Assembly: GCA_022842245.1 (NCBI GenBank)
Contig: JALHPZ010000012.1
Span: forward strand, 75,103 to 139,102
Source of the DNA: Gemmataceae bacterium
GTDB lineage: Bacteria; Planctomycetota; Planctomycetia; Gemmatales; Gemmataceae
Direction of reading: 5' to 3'
DNA: 64,000 nt
A model generated the notes under the pieces. It searched no databases. It was not told where the DNA came from and worked only from the letters and a program-made list of their open reading frames with translations. Positions 1-30,552 of the stretch are shown here, in pieces (within the stretch, counting starts at the first letter, position 1; each line of letters begins with the position of its first letter). The position numbers were made by a program, and so were the translations under genes.

Positions 1-10
1 CCGGCCGGCC

Positions 11-30
11 ACCCCCCCCCCCCCCCCTTT
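11..30. repeat. 16-base poly-C tract
   Basis: Sixteen consecutive C bases at 12-27, followed by four T, lie just downstream of the stop of the WD40 gene. On that gene's coding strand this reads as a G16 run. Such tracts are prone to slippage and to assembly error. No coding sequence crosses it in this window. Confidence 0.9.
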
Positions 31-46
31 TCCAACGCCGTCAGGC

Positions 47-1048
47 TCAACCGAACTTGTACAGTGCCACCTTGTTGTGCCCGGCCAGCACGATCGAGTC
101 CCATTTCGGCGAGATCGAAATGTCGTGGACGTGCATCGGGGCCTTTTCCTGCTTGATCACCTTCTTGCCGGCCACGTCGAGGAAGGCGACGAACCCCTCG
201 CCCGCGCCGCCGGCGGCGAGGAGCCACGAGCCGTCCGGCGCATAGGCCAGTTTGTTCACGAGGCCCTGGCTCTTGTCGGTCACGATCTCGGCGATGCGCG
301 TTTCCTTCTGCCAGTCGAAGACCTCGACGCGGCCCTTGGCTTCGAGGTGGTCGATGTTGCCGATCTTCCCCGTGCCACCGACGGCGAGCTGCTGGCCGTC
401 CGGCGAGAACGCCAGCGACCGGACCCCGCCGATCGAGTGCAGCCGCTGCACTACGTCCCAGGTGTACATGATCGGCGCTTCGACCGTCTTGAGCTTCGCG
501 CCGGTGTTCGCGTCCCAGACGTTCACCTTGGCGGTCTTGTCGGCCGTCGCGAGGTACTTCCCGTCGGCCGAATACGCGACGGCGTAGAGCATCGACGAGA
601 AGTTGTGCGGCGTCTTCTCGGCGTGGCCGCGCAGTTCGCGCACCATCTGTCCGTTCGCCGCGTTCCAGATGCGGCAGACCATGTCGTCGGCGACGCTGGC
701 GATGAATTTCCCGTCCGGCGACGCCGTCACCTGCCGGATCCACTTCGCGTGGGCGGCGTGGCTGCGGATCTCCTTGTTGGCGGCCGTGTCCCACCAGACG
801 AGCTTGCCGTCGTACCCGCCCGAGACGAGCGTGGTGCCGGCGAGCGCCATCGACGTGACGTAGCTGCCGTGGGCGTAGAGTTCCTTCGGCTCGAACTTCT
901 TGTCGGTGAGTTCGCCTTCGCTCACCTTGAAGTCGGACGAGCCGATGAAGGCGCGGTCGGTGCCGGGGACACGCACGATCGTGAAGGCGATGGCCGGCCG
1001 GCCGTGGTCCTTGACGAGCTTCAGCGTTTCGGGATTCGGTGCGGTCAT
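47..1048 (-). CDS. WD40 repeat protein, cytoplasmic
   Basis: The 333-residue protein is a run of about six WD40-type blades, each with an SPDG-like turn and a closing W/F-D pair, for example around residues 60-100, 100-140, 145-190, 205-255 and 260-300. This predicts a beta-propeller scaffold or binding protein. It has no signal peptide or membrane segment, so it should be cytoplasmic. Planctomycetes carry many such propellers, often with unknown partners. It lies 39 bases downstream of the Uma2 gene on the same strand and may be co-transcribed with it. The ligand cannot be predicted. A G-rich run sits directly upstream of the start and a poly-C tract beyond the stop. Confidence 0.85.
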   Translation of the reverse strand: MTAPNPETLKLVKDHGRPAIAFTIVRVPGTDRAFIGSSDFKVSEGELTDKKFEPKELYAHGSYVTSMALAGTTLVSGGYDGKLVWWDTAANKEIRSHAAHAKWIRQVTASPDGKFIASVADDMVCRIWNAANGQMVRELRGHAEKTPHNFSSMLYAVAYSADGKYLATADKTAKVNVWDANTGAKLKTVEAPIMYTWDVVQRLHSIGGVRSLAFSPDGQQLAVGGTGKIGNIDHLEAKGRVEVFDWQKETRIAEIVTDKSQGLVNKLAYAPDGSWLLAAGGAGEGFVAFLDVAGKKVIKQEKAPMHVHDISISPKWDSIVLAGHNKVALYKFG

Positions 1049-9552: not shown

Positions 9553-10485
9553 TCACGGTTTCGCCATCAGTCTACTCTTCGCCAGCTTCGCCGCCACCCG
9601 CACCGCCGAGACGAGGCTGCTGGCATCCGCCAGCCCCTTCCCGGCGATGTCGTACGCGGTGCCGTGCGCCACGCTCGTCCGCACGATCGGCAGCCCGGCC
9701 GCGATGTTCACCGCCCGCCGCCCGCCGAGCAGTTTCATCGCGATGTGACCTTGGTCGTGGTACATCGCAACGACGCCGTCGAACTTCGCCCGGTTGTGCG
9801 GCAGGAAGATCGCATCGGACGCGATGGGGCCGTCAGCCGAGATTCCCTCGCTTAGCGCGGCTTCAACGGCGGGTCGAATGATGGTCGCCTCTTCGTTGCC
9901 GAAGAGGCCGCCGTCGCTGGCGTGGGGGTTCAGGGCCGCCACGCCGATGCGGGCCGGGCGATCGAGCAATCGCGGAACGATGTCGTGCAGCAGGCGGATC
10001 TTCTCCAACACGGTCGCGGTCGTCACATGCTCGAAGATCGACCGCAGCGAGCGGTGCAGAGTGACGTGCGCCACCGCGAGCGGCAGTTCGTCGTCGTAGA
10101 GGAGCATCGCGAACGCGGACGTGCCGGTGCGATCCGCCAGGATTTCCGTGTGGCCGGGGTAGTCGATCCCGGCGGCATGCAGGCCTTCCTTGTGCAGCGG
10201 ACAGGTGACGATGCCGTCGGCGCGGCCGGCGAGGCATTCGTCGATGGCGAAGCAGAGCCAGTCGTACGCGGCGCGCCCGGCCTCCGCCGTTACGACGCCG
10301 ACGGGAACGCGCGAAAGGTTGGACTGCGACGGATTCACGCAAGGAATCCCCGGTGGCAGCCGCGTCGGATCGCCGACAACGGTCGCGATCGCGTGGGCGG
10401 CGAGGCTCGGCCAGGCCTTCGCGATGATCTCGGGGCCAATGCCGGCGACATCGCCCATCGTGACGAGTAAACGGGGAAGAGTCAT
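9553..10485 (-). CDS. pdxA: 4-hydroxythreonine-4-phosphate dehydrogenase family protein
   Basis: The 310-residue protein starts TLPRLLVTMGDVAGIGPE, the PdxA signature. It has the metal-binding histidines in YPGHTEIL, LNPHASDGG and MYHDQGH. PdxA oxidises 4-phosphohydroxythreonine in the DXP-dependent vitamin B6 pathway in the cytoplasm. PdxA-like paralogues act on other acid sugars, so the substrate is probable rather than certain. The ATG at 10485 overlaps the upstream stop (ATGA), giving coupled translation. A longer open frame upstream lies in the preceding gene. No pdxJ is nearby, but DXP synthase is encoded at 46 kb. Confidence 0.92.
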   Translation of the reverse strand: MTLPRLLVTMGDVAGIGPEIIAKAWPSLAAHAIATVVGDPTRLPPGIPCVNPSQSNLSRVPVGVVTAEAGRAAYDWLCFAIDECLAGRADGIVTCPLHKEGLHAAGIDYPGHTEILADRTGTSAFAMLLYDDELPLAVAHVTLHRSLRSIFEHVTTATVLEKIRLLHDIVPRLLDRPARIGVAALNPHASDGGLFGNEEATIIRPAVEAALSEGISADGPIASDAIFLPHNRAKFDGVVAMYHDQGHIAMKLLGGRRAVNIAAGLPIVRTSVAHGTAYDIAGKGLADASSLVSAVRVAAKLAKSRLMAKP

Positions 10486-11345
10486 GGAGGAGATGATACG
10501 CGGTTGTCGCGGAAGACGGCATGACACGCCGTGCAGGCATTCGCCGTTTTTTGGATCACCGCCGCCGGATCGGCACCGGCACGCAAGTTCGCCTCGAGTT
10601 CCGTCGCCGCATCGAGCGCCTCGGCCAAAAACGTCTGGAACCGCTCGTCCCGTTCCGGCGTCGCCCGCTTCATTTCGCGGTAATGTTCGAGGAACAGGAT
10701 GGCGTCCGCCGCCGTCGGTTGCTTCTTCAAGCGATCCCAAGTTTCGTCGATCTCGACCATTCGCGTCACGAGGTCGGCCACGGGCACGCGGGAGGGGAAT
10801 TCGACCGTCGCGTCGTCGAGTGTCGCCGGCGCTCGCTCCACCGCCGCGAACAGGCCGCGATACCGCTCGTCGGTACCGGCCCGCTTCAGATACTCGATGA
10901 GCGACGCGGACGACCGTCCCGGCTCGAGGCATCGCAGCGCCGCCGCGGCAGCCGCAGGACCCCGGTGCTTGCCATGGTGGCAGTGGATATACACCGGCCC
11001 CGGCAGGTCCCGAATGGCCTTCGCGATCGCCTTCGCTCGATCCTCCGGCACGCCATCGTAGCCGATCGGCAGATGGACGTAGCGCAGGCCGAAGCTCTCG
11101 GCCCCTTCGACATCGGGCGGGGCGCCATCCACGGAAATGATCGTCTGGATTCGCAGCAATTGGAGCGATTCAAAGCTTCGCTCGTCCTCCGGTACGCTTC
11201 CGGTGAAGACGTTGTCCGAGAGCCGGAAGACGTTGTGTAAGCCCACGGCTTCGACCGGCTCCGGTTTGAGCGGCGCAACGGTCGGAGCGGGGGCGCACCC
11301 CGCGAGCAACAACATCATCGGCAGCCAACGCAACATGGCATTCAT
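10482..11345 (-). CDS. lipoprotein: dual-specificity phosphatase fused to cytochrome c'-like domain
   Basis: The start at 11345 overlaps the stop of the upstream gene (ATGA), and the stop overlaps pdxA (ATGA). Residues 1-17 form a lipoprotein signal with LLAGC, so the protein should be anchored outside the cytoplasmic membrane. Residues about 35-190 resemble a cysteine phosphatase of the DSP/tyrosine-phosphatase fold: the Cx5R loop is HCHHGKHRG with Cys122 and Arg128, preceded by a candidate general acid around residues 97-102. The C-terminal 90 residues are helical and end with CTACH (271-275) and FRDNR, as in cytochrome c' (Cytochrom_C_2). Both parts look intact. The joint function is unknown; a haem-controlled exported phosphatase is inference. 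Confidence 0.82.
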   Translation of the reverse strand: MNAMLRWLPMMLLLAGCAPAPTVAPLKPEPVEAVGLHNVFRLSDNVFTGSVPEDERSFESLQLLRIQTIISVDGAPPDVEGAESFGLRYVHLPIGYDGVPEDRAKAIAKAIRDLPGPVYIHCHHGKHRGPAAAAAALRCLEPGRSSASLIEYLKRAGTDERYRGLFAAVERAPATLDDATVEFPSRVPVADLVTRMVEIDETWDRLKKQPTAADAILFLEHYREMKRATPERDERFQTFLAEALDAATELEANLRAGADPAAVIQKTANACTACHAVFRDNRVSSPP

Positions 11346-12511
11346 CCGACGCCGCCCGGCTGGGGCTGTTTCAGCGTCATGCGGATCACCTGAGGATTGC
11401 AACGGAACCGGATCGGCTCCTTCCCACTCAAACCGCGGCCAATAACCATCGTCAGGTTTCCCTTTCCGAAGACGCCCATGTCGTACCGACGACTGTACAC
11501 GCTCGGCACGAAGATCGAACCGATTATCGGCAGCCGGATCTGCCCGCCGTGGACGTGGCCGCAGAGCATCAGATCGATGTCGTTCGCGATGCCCCAATGG
11601 AAGTTGTCTGGCGTGTGGCTCGCGCAGATGCGGAACGTCTTCGCTTCGGGAAGTCGCAACGGCCCCGGCGGGAACCACGGGCCTTCGTGGCCGATCAACT
11701 CGCACGGCACGCCGCGGATCGGCACGGTCTCCATCGAGTTCGACAGCACGCGATAGCCGGCCTGCTCTAACTGGATTCGAACCTTTTCCGGTTCGTGGTG
11801 TTCGTCGTGGTTGCCGAGGATGGCGAGATTGCACGCGGTCCCCTTCAACCGGCCGAGGAGCGGCGCGATCCAGTCGCGGTGGGCGTCGGAATCGACGAAG
11901 TCGCCGGCGAGGACGACGATGTCGGGCGGCGGTTCCTTCGCGATCTCGTCGAAGATTCGCTCGAACCAGGTACGCGAAGGCGTGCCGTGGAAGTGGAAGT
12001 CGGAGAGGAGCAGGATCGTGAGGCCGTCCCATACGGCGGGCAGGCGGGACGGGGCGATTTCGAGGTCAGTGAAATCGACCCGGAAGACTCCGTTGAACGG
12101 CAGGGTCGCAATGCGGCGATAGAAGCCGTCGCCGACGGCACGGTCGCCGAGTTCGGCGCGGAGGTCGAGCGTGCGAGTGGCTTCCTTCAGGAGAGAAGCG
12201 GGCGGACGGCGACGAAGCCGGGCGATGGTCACGATCGGGAAGTTGACCGCGCCCAATAGGATGCAGAGCGCAGTGTAAAAGGAGACGAGGATCGACCACA
12301 ATCCGACCGGTGATCCGTGTTGGGAATCGTACTCGAAGGTCCACCACAAAAGCGGTAGCCCGAACACGATGACCAATCCGGTTAGGAGACGCCACGGTTT
12401 GAGGAACCGCTTGGGGAGTCGGCGGCCGTAGAGGTTGTTGAGCCAATAGGTCCAAAAGCAGGCGTGGCCGATCCAGAGGATCGCGAGGAGCAGCAGGGCA
12501 GGAAGGAACAC
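11342..12511 (-). CDS. membrane-anchored metallophosphoesterase
   Basis: The 389-residue protein begins with three hydrophobic segments (about 1-20, 40-62 and 68-100). A calcineurin-like phosphoesterase domain follows with all metal motifs: LSDFHFHG, LAGDFVDSD, LGNHDEHH, ASHTPDN and GHVHGGQ. It resembles YkuE/YaeI-type phosphoesterases, some of which act on lipid A precursors such as UDP-diacylglucosamine. The start is three bases after the sensor gene stop, and the stop overlaps the next start by four bases. The substrate is not readable from sequence. Confidence 0.9.
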   Translation of the reverse strand: MFLPALLLLAILWIGHACFWTYWLNNLYGRRLPKRFLKPWRLLTGLVIVFGLPLLWWTFEYDSQHGSPVGLWSILVSFYTALCILLGAVNFPIVTIARLRRRPPASLLKEATRTLDLRAELGDRAVGDGFYRRIATLPFNGVFRVDFTDLEIAPSRLPAVWDGLTILLLSDFHFHGTPSRTWFERIFDEIAKEPPPDIVVLAGDFVDSDAHRDWIAPLLGRLKGTACNLAILGNHDEHHEPEKVRIQLEQAGYRVLSNSMETVPIRGVPCELIGHEGPWFPPGPLRLPEAKTFRICASHTPDNFHWGIANDIDLMLCGHVHGGQIRLPIIGSIFVPSVYSRRYDMGVFGKGNLTMVIGRGLSGKEPIRFRCNPQVIRMTLKQPQPGGVG

Positions 12512-12514
12512 GGG

Positions 12515-14230
12515 TCAACTCGACGCCGAGACGGGCTGGGCCTTCGGCGCGGGGGGTTGCGGGGCGTTGACGGCACCGACGACTTGATCCGCTCGGAAGG
12601 GCTTGAAGATGACATGTTGGAGGCCGTCCTGGCGGGCCTTCACGATGCTGTGCTGGGAGTCGTAGCCGAAGCCGGTGGTGAAAGCGACGCGACAGGCGGG
12701 CATCGCGACGCGGAGCTTGCGGAAGGTGTCGTAGCCGCCGAGGTCGATGGGGCGGATTTCCTGGAGGACGGCGTCGTAGGCGATGTCGTTGGCGAGGGCA
12801 AGGCCTTCGGCGGCGGTGCCGACCGTCTCGACTTCCGCGCCGAGCCGGCCGAGCATGAGGTGCGCCTGGCGTCGCATCCGTTCGTCCTGTTCGATGACGA
12901 GGACGCGCTTGCCGACGAGGGGCACCGGGTCGCCGGTCGCGCCGGTCTCGCCGACCATTTCGCGGCCGAGCTTGTGGACGCATTCCCGCATCTGGCGGGC
13001 GCTCTGCATGATCTTGCGGAGGTGGTTGGCGGCGTCGGAATCGTTCCCGTGAAGCCGGGCGTAGAGCAGCGCCGCGCTCGCCAGCACTTCGTCCACGGGC
13101 AGCGCCAGTTCCTTGTTGACCGCCTCCATCGACTGTGACAGCGTGCAGGACTGCTGCGCGGTGAGCAGGTCGAGGGTGTTGAGCGCGGCGGCGATTTCCT
13201 TGCTGAAGAGTTCGGTGAATTGCAGGTCGTCGGGTCCGAAGCCGTTGGTGCGGGGGCTTTCGACGTTGAGCGTGCCGACGACCTCCTCGGCGTATTTGAG
13301 CGGGATCGTCAGCGAACTCTTCGCGTCCTTGGCGCCTTCGAGATAGTAAGGATCGCACGAGGTATCGGGACAGAGATAGCTCTGGCCGGTGTAGGCGACA
13401 TGCCCGGTGACTCCGTTGCCTTCGGGCCGGGCGAAGAGGCGGCGGCGGGCCGCCTCCTCCGTCATGCCGTCTTCGACGAGCGGTTTCAGCTCGCCGGTGC
13501 GCTTGTCGAGGATGCGGATTTCGATCGTGTCGTAGCGGAGCAGATCGTGGACGTGCTTGCGAATGTTCTTCTTGAGCAGCTCGACGCGCGTCGGCACGTT
13601 CATCTCGGCCAGCAGGCTCGGTTCGAGCGCGGCGAGTTCGCGGCCGGCGGTATGCAGCGCGTGCAGCTTCCGTTGCTGTTCCACTTCGGCCGTGACGTTC
13701 TGCAGGATCGCAATGAGCTGGATCACGGTCCCGTCGGCCGAAAAGACCGGTCGGATGCGGATATCCAGATACGACTGCGCAGCCGGCTCCTGTCGGTGCA
13801 GGCGGAACGACACCGCCTGGCCCCCGGCAGCGGTCATCACCGGGTTCGGCTGGTCGCTGGCGAGAAGGATGGAGGCGTTGGAAGAATTGGCAAAATCGAG
13901 GGATTCGAGGAGCGTCTGACCGACCGGGTTCCGTTGGCACCAGCCTCGGAGGATCACGTTCGCCCAGATGACCCGGCCGTCCGCGTCGAGCGACGCGATC
14001 CCCTGGTCGATGTTGGCGAGGATGATCTCGTCGCGGCGGTAGCGATCGATCAGTTCGCTTGTAAGCGCGGCGGTGGCGACAATGCCGTCGTAATGGCCTT
14101 CGCGCAGCTGGTCGGCGGCGGCCGTCGGGCTGACCGCCGGCGTCACGTCGGCGTGCGCCGTGACGGCAGCGAGCGCCGGCGGAGCCGGGCCGATCAACAG
14201 CAATCGCGGGCGGGGATTCACAGGCCGCAT
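12515..14230 (-). CDS. PAS-GAF sensor protein with a degenerate C-terminal receiver domain
   Basis: The 571-residue cytoplasmic protein has, in order, a degenerate receiver-like N-terminus (about 8-70), a PAS domain (about 75-190, IDQGIASLDADGRVIWANV), a GAF domain (about 215-365), a dimerising helical stretch and a receiver domain (about 435-560). The receiver keeps Lys (FKPF) and Thr (FTTG). The phosphoacceptor Asp is replaced by Glu (VLQEIRP), and the acidic pair is Glu-Gln. No HATPase domain is present, so it is not a complete kinase. A constitutively active-like receiver is inference. It is the first gene of the 14.2-8.5 kb operon. Confidence 0.82.
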   Translation of the reverse strand: MRPVNPRPRLLLIGPAPPALAAVTAHADVTPAVSPTAAADQLREGHYDGIVATAALTSELIDRYRRDEIILANIDQGIASLDADGRVIWANVILRGWCQRNPVGQTLLESLDFANSSNASILLASDQPNPVMTAAGGQAVSFRLHRQEPAAQSYLDIRIRPVFSADGTVIQLIAILQNVTAEVEQQRKLHALHTAGRELAALEPSLLAEMNVPTRVELLKKNIRKHVHDLLRYDTIEIRILDKRTGELKPLVEDGMTEEAARRRLFARPEGNGVTGHVAYTGQSYLCPDTSCDPYYLEGAKDAKSSLTIPLKYAEEVVGTLNVESPRTNGFGPDDLQFTELFSKEIAAALNTLDLLTAQQSCTLSQSMEAVNKELALPVDEVLASAALLYARLHGNDSDAANHLRKIMQSARQMRECVHKLGREMVGETGATGDPVPLVGKRVLVIEQDERMRRQAHLMLGRLGAEVETVGTAAEGLALANDIAYDAVLQEIRPIDLGGYDTFRKLRVAMPACRVAFTTGFGYDSQHSIVKARQDGLQHVIFKPFRADQVVGAVNAPQPPAPKAQPVSASS

Positions 14231-28347: not shown

Positions 28348-28419
28348 GCCAGCTTAGCTCAGCGGTAGAGCAACGGTTTTGTAAACCGTTGGTCGTGGGT
28401 TCAATTCCCACAGCTGGCT
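28348..28419 (+). tRNA. tRNA-Thr (anticodon TGT)
   Basis: Full cloverleaf of 72 bases: acceptor GCCAGCT pairs with AGCTGGC, and anticodon TGT sits in a stem ACGGT/ACCGT. CCA is not encoded. It is the first of four tRNAs before tuf. Confidence 0.95.
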
Positions 28420-28451
28420 CTGGACCGACGACGGGCGGTGCGCGGATTCAC

Positions 28452-28534
28452 GGGTAGGTGGCAGAGCGGTCAATTGCACCAGACTGTAAATCTGGCCTCT
28501 AACGAGTTCGGGGGTTCGAATCCCTCCCTACCCA
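28452..28534 (+). tRNA. tRNA-Tyr (anticodon GTA)
   Basis: An 83-base tRNA with a long variable arm, acceptor GGGTAGG/CCTACCC, anticodon GTA in stem CCAGA/TCTGG. The long arm is normal for bacterial tRNA-Tyr. Confidence 0.95.
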
Positions 28535-28541
28535 CTGGGAA

Positions 28542-28626
28542 GAAATGCGGAACGCGAAGTGCGGAATTCGGAATGAAAACTGACTTTTGATTTCATTCCG
28601 CAATCCGAAATCCGCATTCCGAATTC
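28542..28626. repeat. imperfect hairpin repeat between tRNA genes
   Basis: The arms 28542-28578 and 28591-28626 are built from GCGGAATTCGGAATG-type units and pair imperfectly. It lies inside the tRNA operon, between the Tyr and Gly tRNAs. It is related to the hairpins at 30236 and 47569. Confidence 0.8.
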
Positions 28627-28632
28627 GAGCAT

Positions 28633-28704
28633 GCGGGCGTAGCTCAGCGGTAGAGCTCTTGCCTTCCAAGCAAGATGTCGTGGGTTCAAATCCCATCGCC
28701 CGCT
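28633..28704 (+). tRNA. tRNA-Gly (anticodon TCC)
   Basis: A 72-base cloverleaf, acceptor GCGGGCG/CGCCCGC, anticodon TCC in stem TTGC/GCAA. Confidence 0.95.
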
Positions 28705-28779
28705 CTGGCCAAATCGCTAAATCGCCCGTAAGACTCTCCGGGCCGATAAATTCGGCCGAGGGAGTCACTTTCCTCCTTT

Positions 28780-28854
<75 letters not shown>

Positions 28855-28993
28855 CGGCCGGGCGTGGTTTTCGAGTTCAATCAGACGGACGGCGGACCAC
28901 ACGGCGGGTGACGGTCGTTGCGTGGGGCAGCGGCCAATGACTATCCACGGCGCGACCCATCCACCACAGGTCGGCATTACCCGGAGATTTGCG

Positions 28994-30229
<1,236 letters not shown>

Positions 30230-30235
30230 GTTGAA

Positions 30236-30363
30236 CAGTGCGGAGTGCGGAGTGCGGAGTGCGGAGTGAAATCCAAAAAACGGCGAGATCGGGACTTTTG
30301 GAAGTCCGTTCCGTCAGGGGTTTTGGTCTTCACTCCGCACTCCGCACTCCGAACTCCGCACTG
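30236..30363. repeat. 35-base-pair hairpin repeat between tuf and tRNA-Trp
   Basis: The left arm 30236-30270 (five tandem GCGGAGT-type units) pairs with 30329-30363 over 35 bases with one mismatch. The loop is 58 bases. It begins six bases after the tuf stop and ends four bases before tRNA-Trp. It could terminate, attenuate or direct processing, or it could be a mobile repeat. Confidence 0.9.
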
Positions 30364-30367
30364 GAAT

Positions 30368-30440
<73 letters not shown>

Positions 30441-30552
30441 CTCCCCCGACACCGCTCGACCCCGTGCCCGACCGGCGCGGGGTTTTTGGCACAAATGCGG
30501 TCCGTTGCACGACGCGATCGACCGCCGCATTCTCCGGTACCGAAGGACGGTC

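Follow-up and report, generated by a model that had tools for sequence, protein, structure and literature searches.

Background

Oxidation of the catalytic cysteine is known to switch enzymes of the protein-tyrosine-phosphatase (PTP) type. The window analysed here, a stretch of 64,000 nucleotides from a Gemmataceae bacterium, raises the question of whether such a cysteine can be joined to a haem within one exported protein and, if so, what the haem does there. An earlier note on this DNA, made from its letters alone, had claimed an intact Cx5R loop and an intact CTACH haem site in a single lipoprotein; it had called the two halves a cysteine phosphatase and a cytochrome c', and had proposed that gas ligands such as NO control the phosphatase through the haem. 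The gene is a member of a little-noticed two-domain family that extends across one bacterial phylum. Literature searches for the pairing of a dual-specificity phosphatase (DSP) with a haem domain returned no description of this protein, and the partial texts of PMC11897245, PMC8388095, PMC4409338 and PMC5823870 contain no description of it either.

Results

One predicted lipoprotein, two domains: a PTP/DSP fold and a class II-like cytochrome c

The open reading frame at 11345-10482 on the minus strand (the strand of all features of this gene and of its two overlapping neighbours) encodes a predicted lipoprotein of 287 amino acids in which, by translation, model and family comparison, a PTP/DSP-fold domain is followed by a class II cytochrome c four-helix bundle. 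The translation bears out the coexistence of the two motifs: behind a signal peptide (11295..11345) with the lipobox LAGC17, whose predicted lipidated Cys17 is aligned with Cys in 51 of 75 alignment rows having start sites of our own choosing, come the P-loop HCHHGKHR (residues 121-128, with Cys122 and Arg128; 10959..10985 including Gly129) and the haem c attachment site CTACH (Cys271, Cys274 and His275; 10521..10535). Their occurrence is not a matter of chance, as a single-sequence search of the PDB with the window protein finds the phosphatase TpbA at E 3e-8, the family profile finds it at E 5e-9, and the two-domain frame is conserved across the phylum.

Structure prediction was confident for both halves and upheld the two folds that the earlier note had presupposed. 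The AlphaFold2 model of the full protein, built on the 75-row alignment, reaches pLDDT 93.1 and pTM 0.87. Its N-terminal domain (residues 30-181; 10803..11258) has a phosphatase fold by VIA (Z 17.2 to DUSP23, 16.8 to TpbA, and about 16 to Siw14 and PFA-DSP) and by Foldseek (TpbA, E 5e-8). The C-terminal domain (residues 188-280; 10506..10784), modelled alone at pLDDT 92.1, is a haem four-helix bundle nearest to Kusta0087/0088 (NaxLS; VIA Z 13.9, rmsd 1.4, 92 aligned) and next to cytochromes b562 and c' (Z about 12). Because middling Z scores come easily to helical bundles, and because the Foldseek E-values of this half are weak (best 0.083), the CxxCH motif and the matches of the family profile to cytochromes c', b562 and c-556 (E 8e-5 to 6e-3), which lie in the other half from its match to TpbA, count as much as the fold. 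Taken alone, the window protein matches no Pfam or NCBIfam model above cut-off in either half: PF01322 scores 17.3 bits against a gathering score of 26.5 (it matches 56 of 75 family members at E 0.01), and the only NCBIfam matches, both far below cut-off, are Blh (E 8e-4; 18.4 of 625 bits) and TIGR01244 (E 0.017; 15.1 of 85.85). It is thus the fold and the motif, and not the Pfam score, that make the haem half class II-like. Haem attachment is plausible in this host, since two genes for cytochrome c assembly are present in its genome and class II cytochrome domains are common among its relatives (58 of 59 genomes).

In most family members helices A and B are separated by a conserved loop (W..P..HPDLDP), which the window protein lacks between residues 211 and 212, as do the closely related L001/L082 and L083.

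Distribution of the family and conservation of both sites

The same domain pair was found widely within the Planctomycetota: 171 of 292 sampled genomes match at E 0.001, and strong matches (E 1.1e-41 or better, covering most of both domains) occur in 118 of the 292, counted by hand and including two cut by contig ends. Within a set of 59 relatives, host included, 26 match, 23 of them over both domains (also counted by hand), while in the phylum of a metagenome-assembled genome titled Pedosphaera only that assembly, 1 of 194 genomes, matches at E 1e-20. Two plasmid records also carry members, one labelled 'dual specificity protein phosphatase' and the other 'hypothetical protein'. On the plasmid of Planctomyces sp. 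SH-PL62 (L214, 4941-10915) a cytochrome c oxidase operon and a DUF3365 gene are found within a few kilobases of the member. One further weak match (L104, G033:C414) is confined to the haem end (query 229-282) and belongs to a 522-residue open frame, another protein of the relatives with a class II-like haem site.

For conservation we counted 94 full-length loci (92 distinct) that were not picked by their P-loop; the loci L001-L080 were found partly by a P-loop pattern, and their invariant P-loop carries no weight. The 292-genome search contributed its best 30 matches (L109-L138) and 40 weaker full-length ones chosen deliberately (L169-L208); L105 is a DSP-only match. All 92 distinct members keep C122, G125, R128 and Y96 of the enzyme half together with M196, C271, C274 and H275 of the haem half, and D73 (90), H121 (91), H127 (88) and R279 (91) are nearly invariant. 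Not one of the 92 has lost one active site while retaining the other; among L001-L080 two rows (L005 and L064) have no haem site, and both of these matches run to a contig end. Since both sites are always kept, the haem and the enzyme probably form one working unit. This joint retention argues against the proposal that the two domains have nothing but export and anchoring in common, with an electron-carrying cytochrome and a phosphatase riding on one chain without cross-talk. We regard that proposal as quite unlikely, and what speaks for it is the gene neighbourhood, which is not conserved across the phylum.

In the window itself the neighbourhood is tight. ATGA overlaps join the gene to a metallophosphoesterase gene upstream (11342..12511; overlap at 11345-11342) and to pdxA downstream (9553..10485; overlap at 10485-10482), both identified from sequence and Pfam. 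The coupling that the earlier note had read from these overlaps is real here but not general: comparison of neighbourhoods found either pairing only in close relatives, with the order metallophosphoesterase, DSP/cytochrome, pdxA in the window, L001/L082 and L083. When 84 neighbourhoods were clustered, and families counted by cluster without annotation, no neighbour family recurred in more than 7 loci. A vitamin B6 or metallophosphoesterase role for the family as a whole was considered and is unsupported, the neighbours in these 84 neighbourhoods not being conserved across the phylum.

Elsewhere in the window, a gene for a PAS-GAF-receiver protein (12515-14230, minus strand), which has no histidine-kinase ATPase domain by Pfam, ends 3 bases before the metallophosphoesterase gene, and five clustered tRNA genes (Thr, Tyr, Gly, Thr, Trp) occupy 28348-30441 on the plus strand.

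A probable methionine ligand in the haem half

The distal haem residue bears directly on the suggestion of a gas sensor. VIA aligns residues 6..98 of the haem model with 25..130 of 6r6n, and residues 7..96 with 1..106 of b562. In the register read from the ends of these structural alignments, model Met13 (Met196, helix A; 10758..10760) coincides with Met7 of b562 and with residue 32 of Kusta0087/0088, and model His92 (His275) with b562 His102; Met7 and His102 are the axial ligands of b562. The profile alignment to b562 disagrees, setting Met7 opposite Ile199, three residues off Met196. A methionine stands at this helix-A position, the axial one of His/Met four-helix cytochromes, in 92/92 distinct members and in both cytochromes encoded by separate genes (described below), and is the predicted sixth ligand. 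By this register the haem is more likely to be six-coordinate, His/Met and of redox type than open to NO; such coordination is the better reading because Met196 is invariant and falls on the axial methionine position of b562.

True cytochrome c', five-coordinate and gas-binding, has a non-ligating residue at the distal position. Against that background the invariant Met196, at a probable axial position, weakens the part of the earlier note that made the domain a gas-binding cytochrome c', whereas the class II fold itself stands. That fold, and the fact that its nearest solved structure, NaxLS, is according to the partial text of its source a nitric oxide-binding cytochrome complex, so that a relative of this fold is able to bind NO, are what favour a phosphatase controlled by NO or CO at a five-coordinate or ligand-switching haem; on balance we consider such a gas sensor very doubtful. 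The canonical planctomycetal cytochrome c' (L139) aligns with the haem profile over the last 26 columns only, and its distal residue lies outside.

NaxLS, from the anammox planctomycete Kuenenia, is the best structural match of the haem half and comes from the same phylum, but the partial source text presents it as a heterodimer of c cytochromes that interacts with hydrazine synthase, and it has no phosphatase half. It also differs at residue 32, which is Cys by the titles of PDB entries (C32M and C32G mutants) and Met in the window protein; the original study reportedly gives its haem His/Cys ligation. Cytochromes c-556 and b562 share the four-helix bundle, but they are free-standing electron carriers, and the haem of b562 is not covalently bound in nature.

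Split genes and a re-tuned active site

Twenty DSP-only loci were hand-picked from the 292-genome search. In two of them (L217 and L218) the gene directly downstream of the DSP gene encodes a class II cytochrome that has a signal peptide of its own, and in L218 the two genes share a GTGA overlap; for the other 18, the flanks covered (up to about 2.5 kb) contain no class II cytochrome gene. The split DSPs have P-loops of the haem-linked type, GRHRA and GKHRS. Lone DSPs with a classical DRTG P-loop are numerous in the Planctomycetota (L217-L236), and several of them have lipobox-like N-termini.

Comparison of the 94 haem-linked DSPs (92 fused and 2 split) with the 18 lone ones reveals a re-tuned active site. 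Asp73 (11127..11129) is present in 92/94 haem-linked and 0/18 lone proteins, which have Arg (17) or Thr (1); Tyr96 is present in 94/94, and the lone DSPs have other residues there; His127, found in 90/94 against 1/18, stands where lone DSPs have the Asp of their DRTG loop (classical in 17/18); and Thr at position 129 occurs in 0/94 against 17/18. Fisher values for these differences take no account of relatedness and cannot be read as probabilities of independent events: in a tree of the DSP domain the fused members all group in a single clade, separate from the lone DSPs, and the branch leading to that clade (support 0.97) leaves the two split DSPs at the base, on the side of the lone ones. 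On this tree the differences amount to one change, counting as one event and not many. One of the two-gene genomes, G169, belongs to a class in which 17/17 genomes match and 16 of them have a long single frame, and still its DSP is basal on the lone side; its two-gene state may be pre-fusion, a fission or a transfer.

By these comparisons the re-tuning connects the chemistry at the cysteine with having a haem partner. Adjacent split halves and a re-tuned active site in haem-linked DSPs together support a joint function of DSP and haem, and both count against domains that merely travel together.

What the re-tuned site catalyses is less clear-cut. The closest known enzyme is TpbA (PA3885), a periplasmic DSP of Pseudomonas aeruginosa with an exported DSP fold and an HCxHGxxR P-loop; in the partial text of PMC4409338 its general acid is Asp105, with which Asp97 of the window protein is aligned (Tyr96 and Asp97, 11055..11060). 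TpbA has no haem domain, its chains being about 160-218 residues of DSP, whereas the window protein has Gly after the Arg and belongs to a separate clade marked by Asp73, Tyr96 and His127. The PFA-DSP/Siw14 inositol pyrophosphate phosphatases share the fold (Z 15-16), and Siw14 has the same GKHR P-loop as the window protein; they are eukaryotic enzymes and are not known to carry haem.

A Ser or Thr directly after the P-loop Arg is usual in active dual-specificity phosphatases, although it lies outside the HCX5R definition. The window protein has Gly129 in its place, and the 92 distinct members have G (65), S (23), A (4) or T (0); the general-acid Asp97, despite its alignment with that of TpbA, is retained in 60/92 (16 of 40 in the divergent tail). 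Given the incomplete retention of Asp97 and the Gly after Arg, any phosphatase chemistry may be reduced or changed. The earlier note's phosphatase therefore stands as a fold with a Cx5R loop, while the Gly at the post-Arg position and an active site unlike that of lone DSPs qualify it as an activity.

Such residues leave room for a different chemistry, in which the P-loop Cys is no phosphatase at all and instead handles periplasmic sulfur or oxyanion redox reactions (of persulfide, thiosulfate or sulfite, for example), passing electrons to the attached haem. The haem-linked DSPs have lost the post-Arg Thr and often the general acid, and have gained the invariant or near-invariant Asp73, Tyr96 and His127; a haem partner fits redox chemistry better than hydrolysis; and the only NCBIfam matches, far below cut-off as they are, are TIGR01244 and the PTP-fold sulfurtransferase Blh. 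The DUF442 domain of Blh, with its Cys-Arg loop, is a PTP fold acting as a sulfurtransferase in the partial text of PMC5823870, but Blh is fused to an ETHE1 dioxygenase and not to a cytochrome. The family profile moreover matches TpbA (E 5e-9) better than it matches 3gxg, a DUF442 protein (E 3e-4), Asp97 of the window protein is aligned with the TpbA general acid, and no neighbour gene recurs widely in the 84 neighbourhoods (clusters without annotation). We judge this alternative unlikely, though the strongest of the rivals.

Discussion

Computation shows the two folds and the two motifs, their conservation together, and an active site that is re-tuned in the haem-linked clade. These describe what would be an exported, membrane-anchored enzyme whose PTP/DSP-fold Cys-Arg site and class II cytochrome c belong to one chain, and, judging from sequence and model, a redox-coupled exported enzyme is the most likely identity of the family. 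As to mechanism, we tentatively favour a redox-gated phosphatase over a gas sensor, with a chance we put somewhat short of even: a six-coordinate His275/Met196 haem would exchange electrons with a periplasmic redox carrier and set the redox state of Cys122, either keeping it reduced and active or gating it, and the outcome would be a phosphatase acting, under redox control, on exported phosphorylated targets.

A bolder and improbable proposal, to which we give slightly less credence than to the sulfur or oxyanion chemistry in general and more than to independent domains, is that the family is a phylum-specific redox enzyme built on a PTP fold. Its Asp73/Tyr96/His127/Cys122/Arg128 site would act on an oxyanion or sulfur substrate and exchange electrons with the covalent His/Met haem, phosphate hydrolysis having been abandoned before the genes fused.

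The haem half was missed in the annotations of the two plasmid-borne members, and taking it into account gives this planctomycetal family a meaning. A covalent haem module on a PTP-type enzyme, conserved phylum-wide and accompanied by a re-tuned active site, offers a naturally occurring case for direct tests of redox control, or of redox chemistry, in such enzymes.
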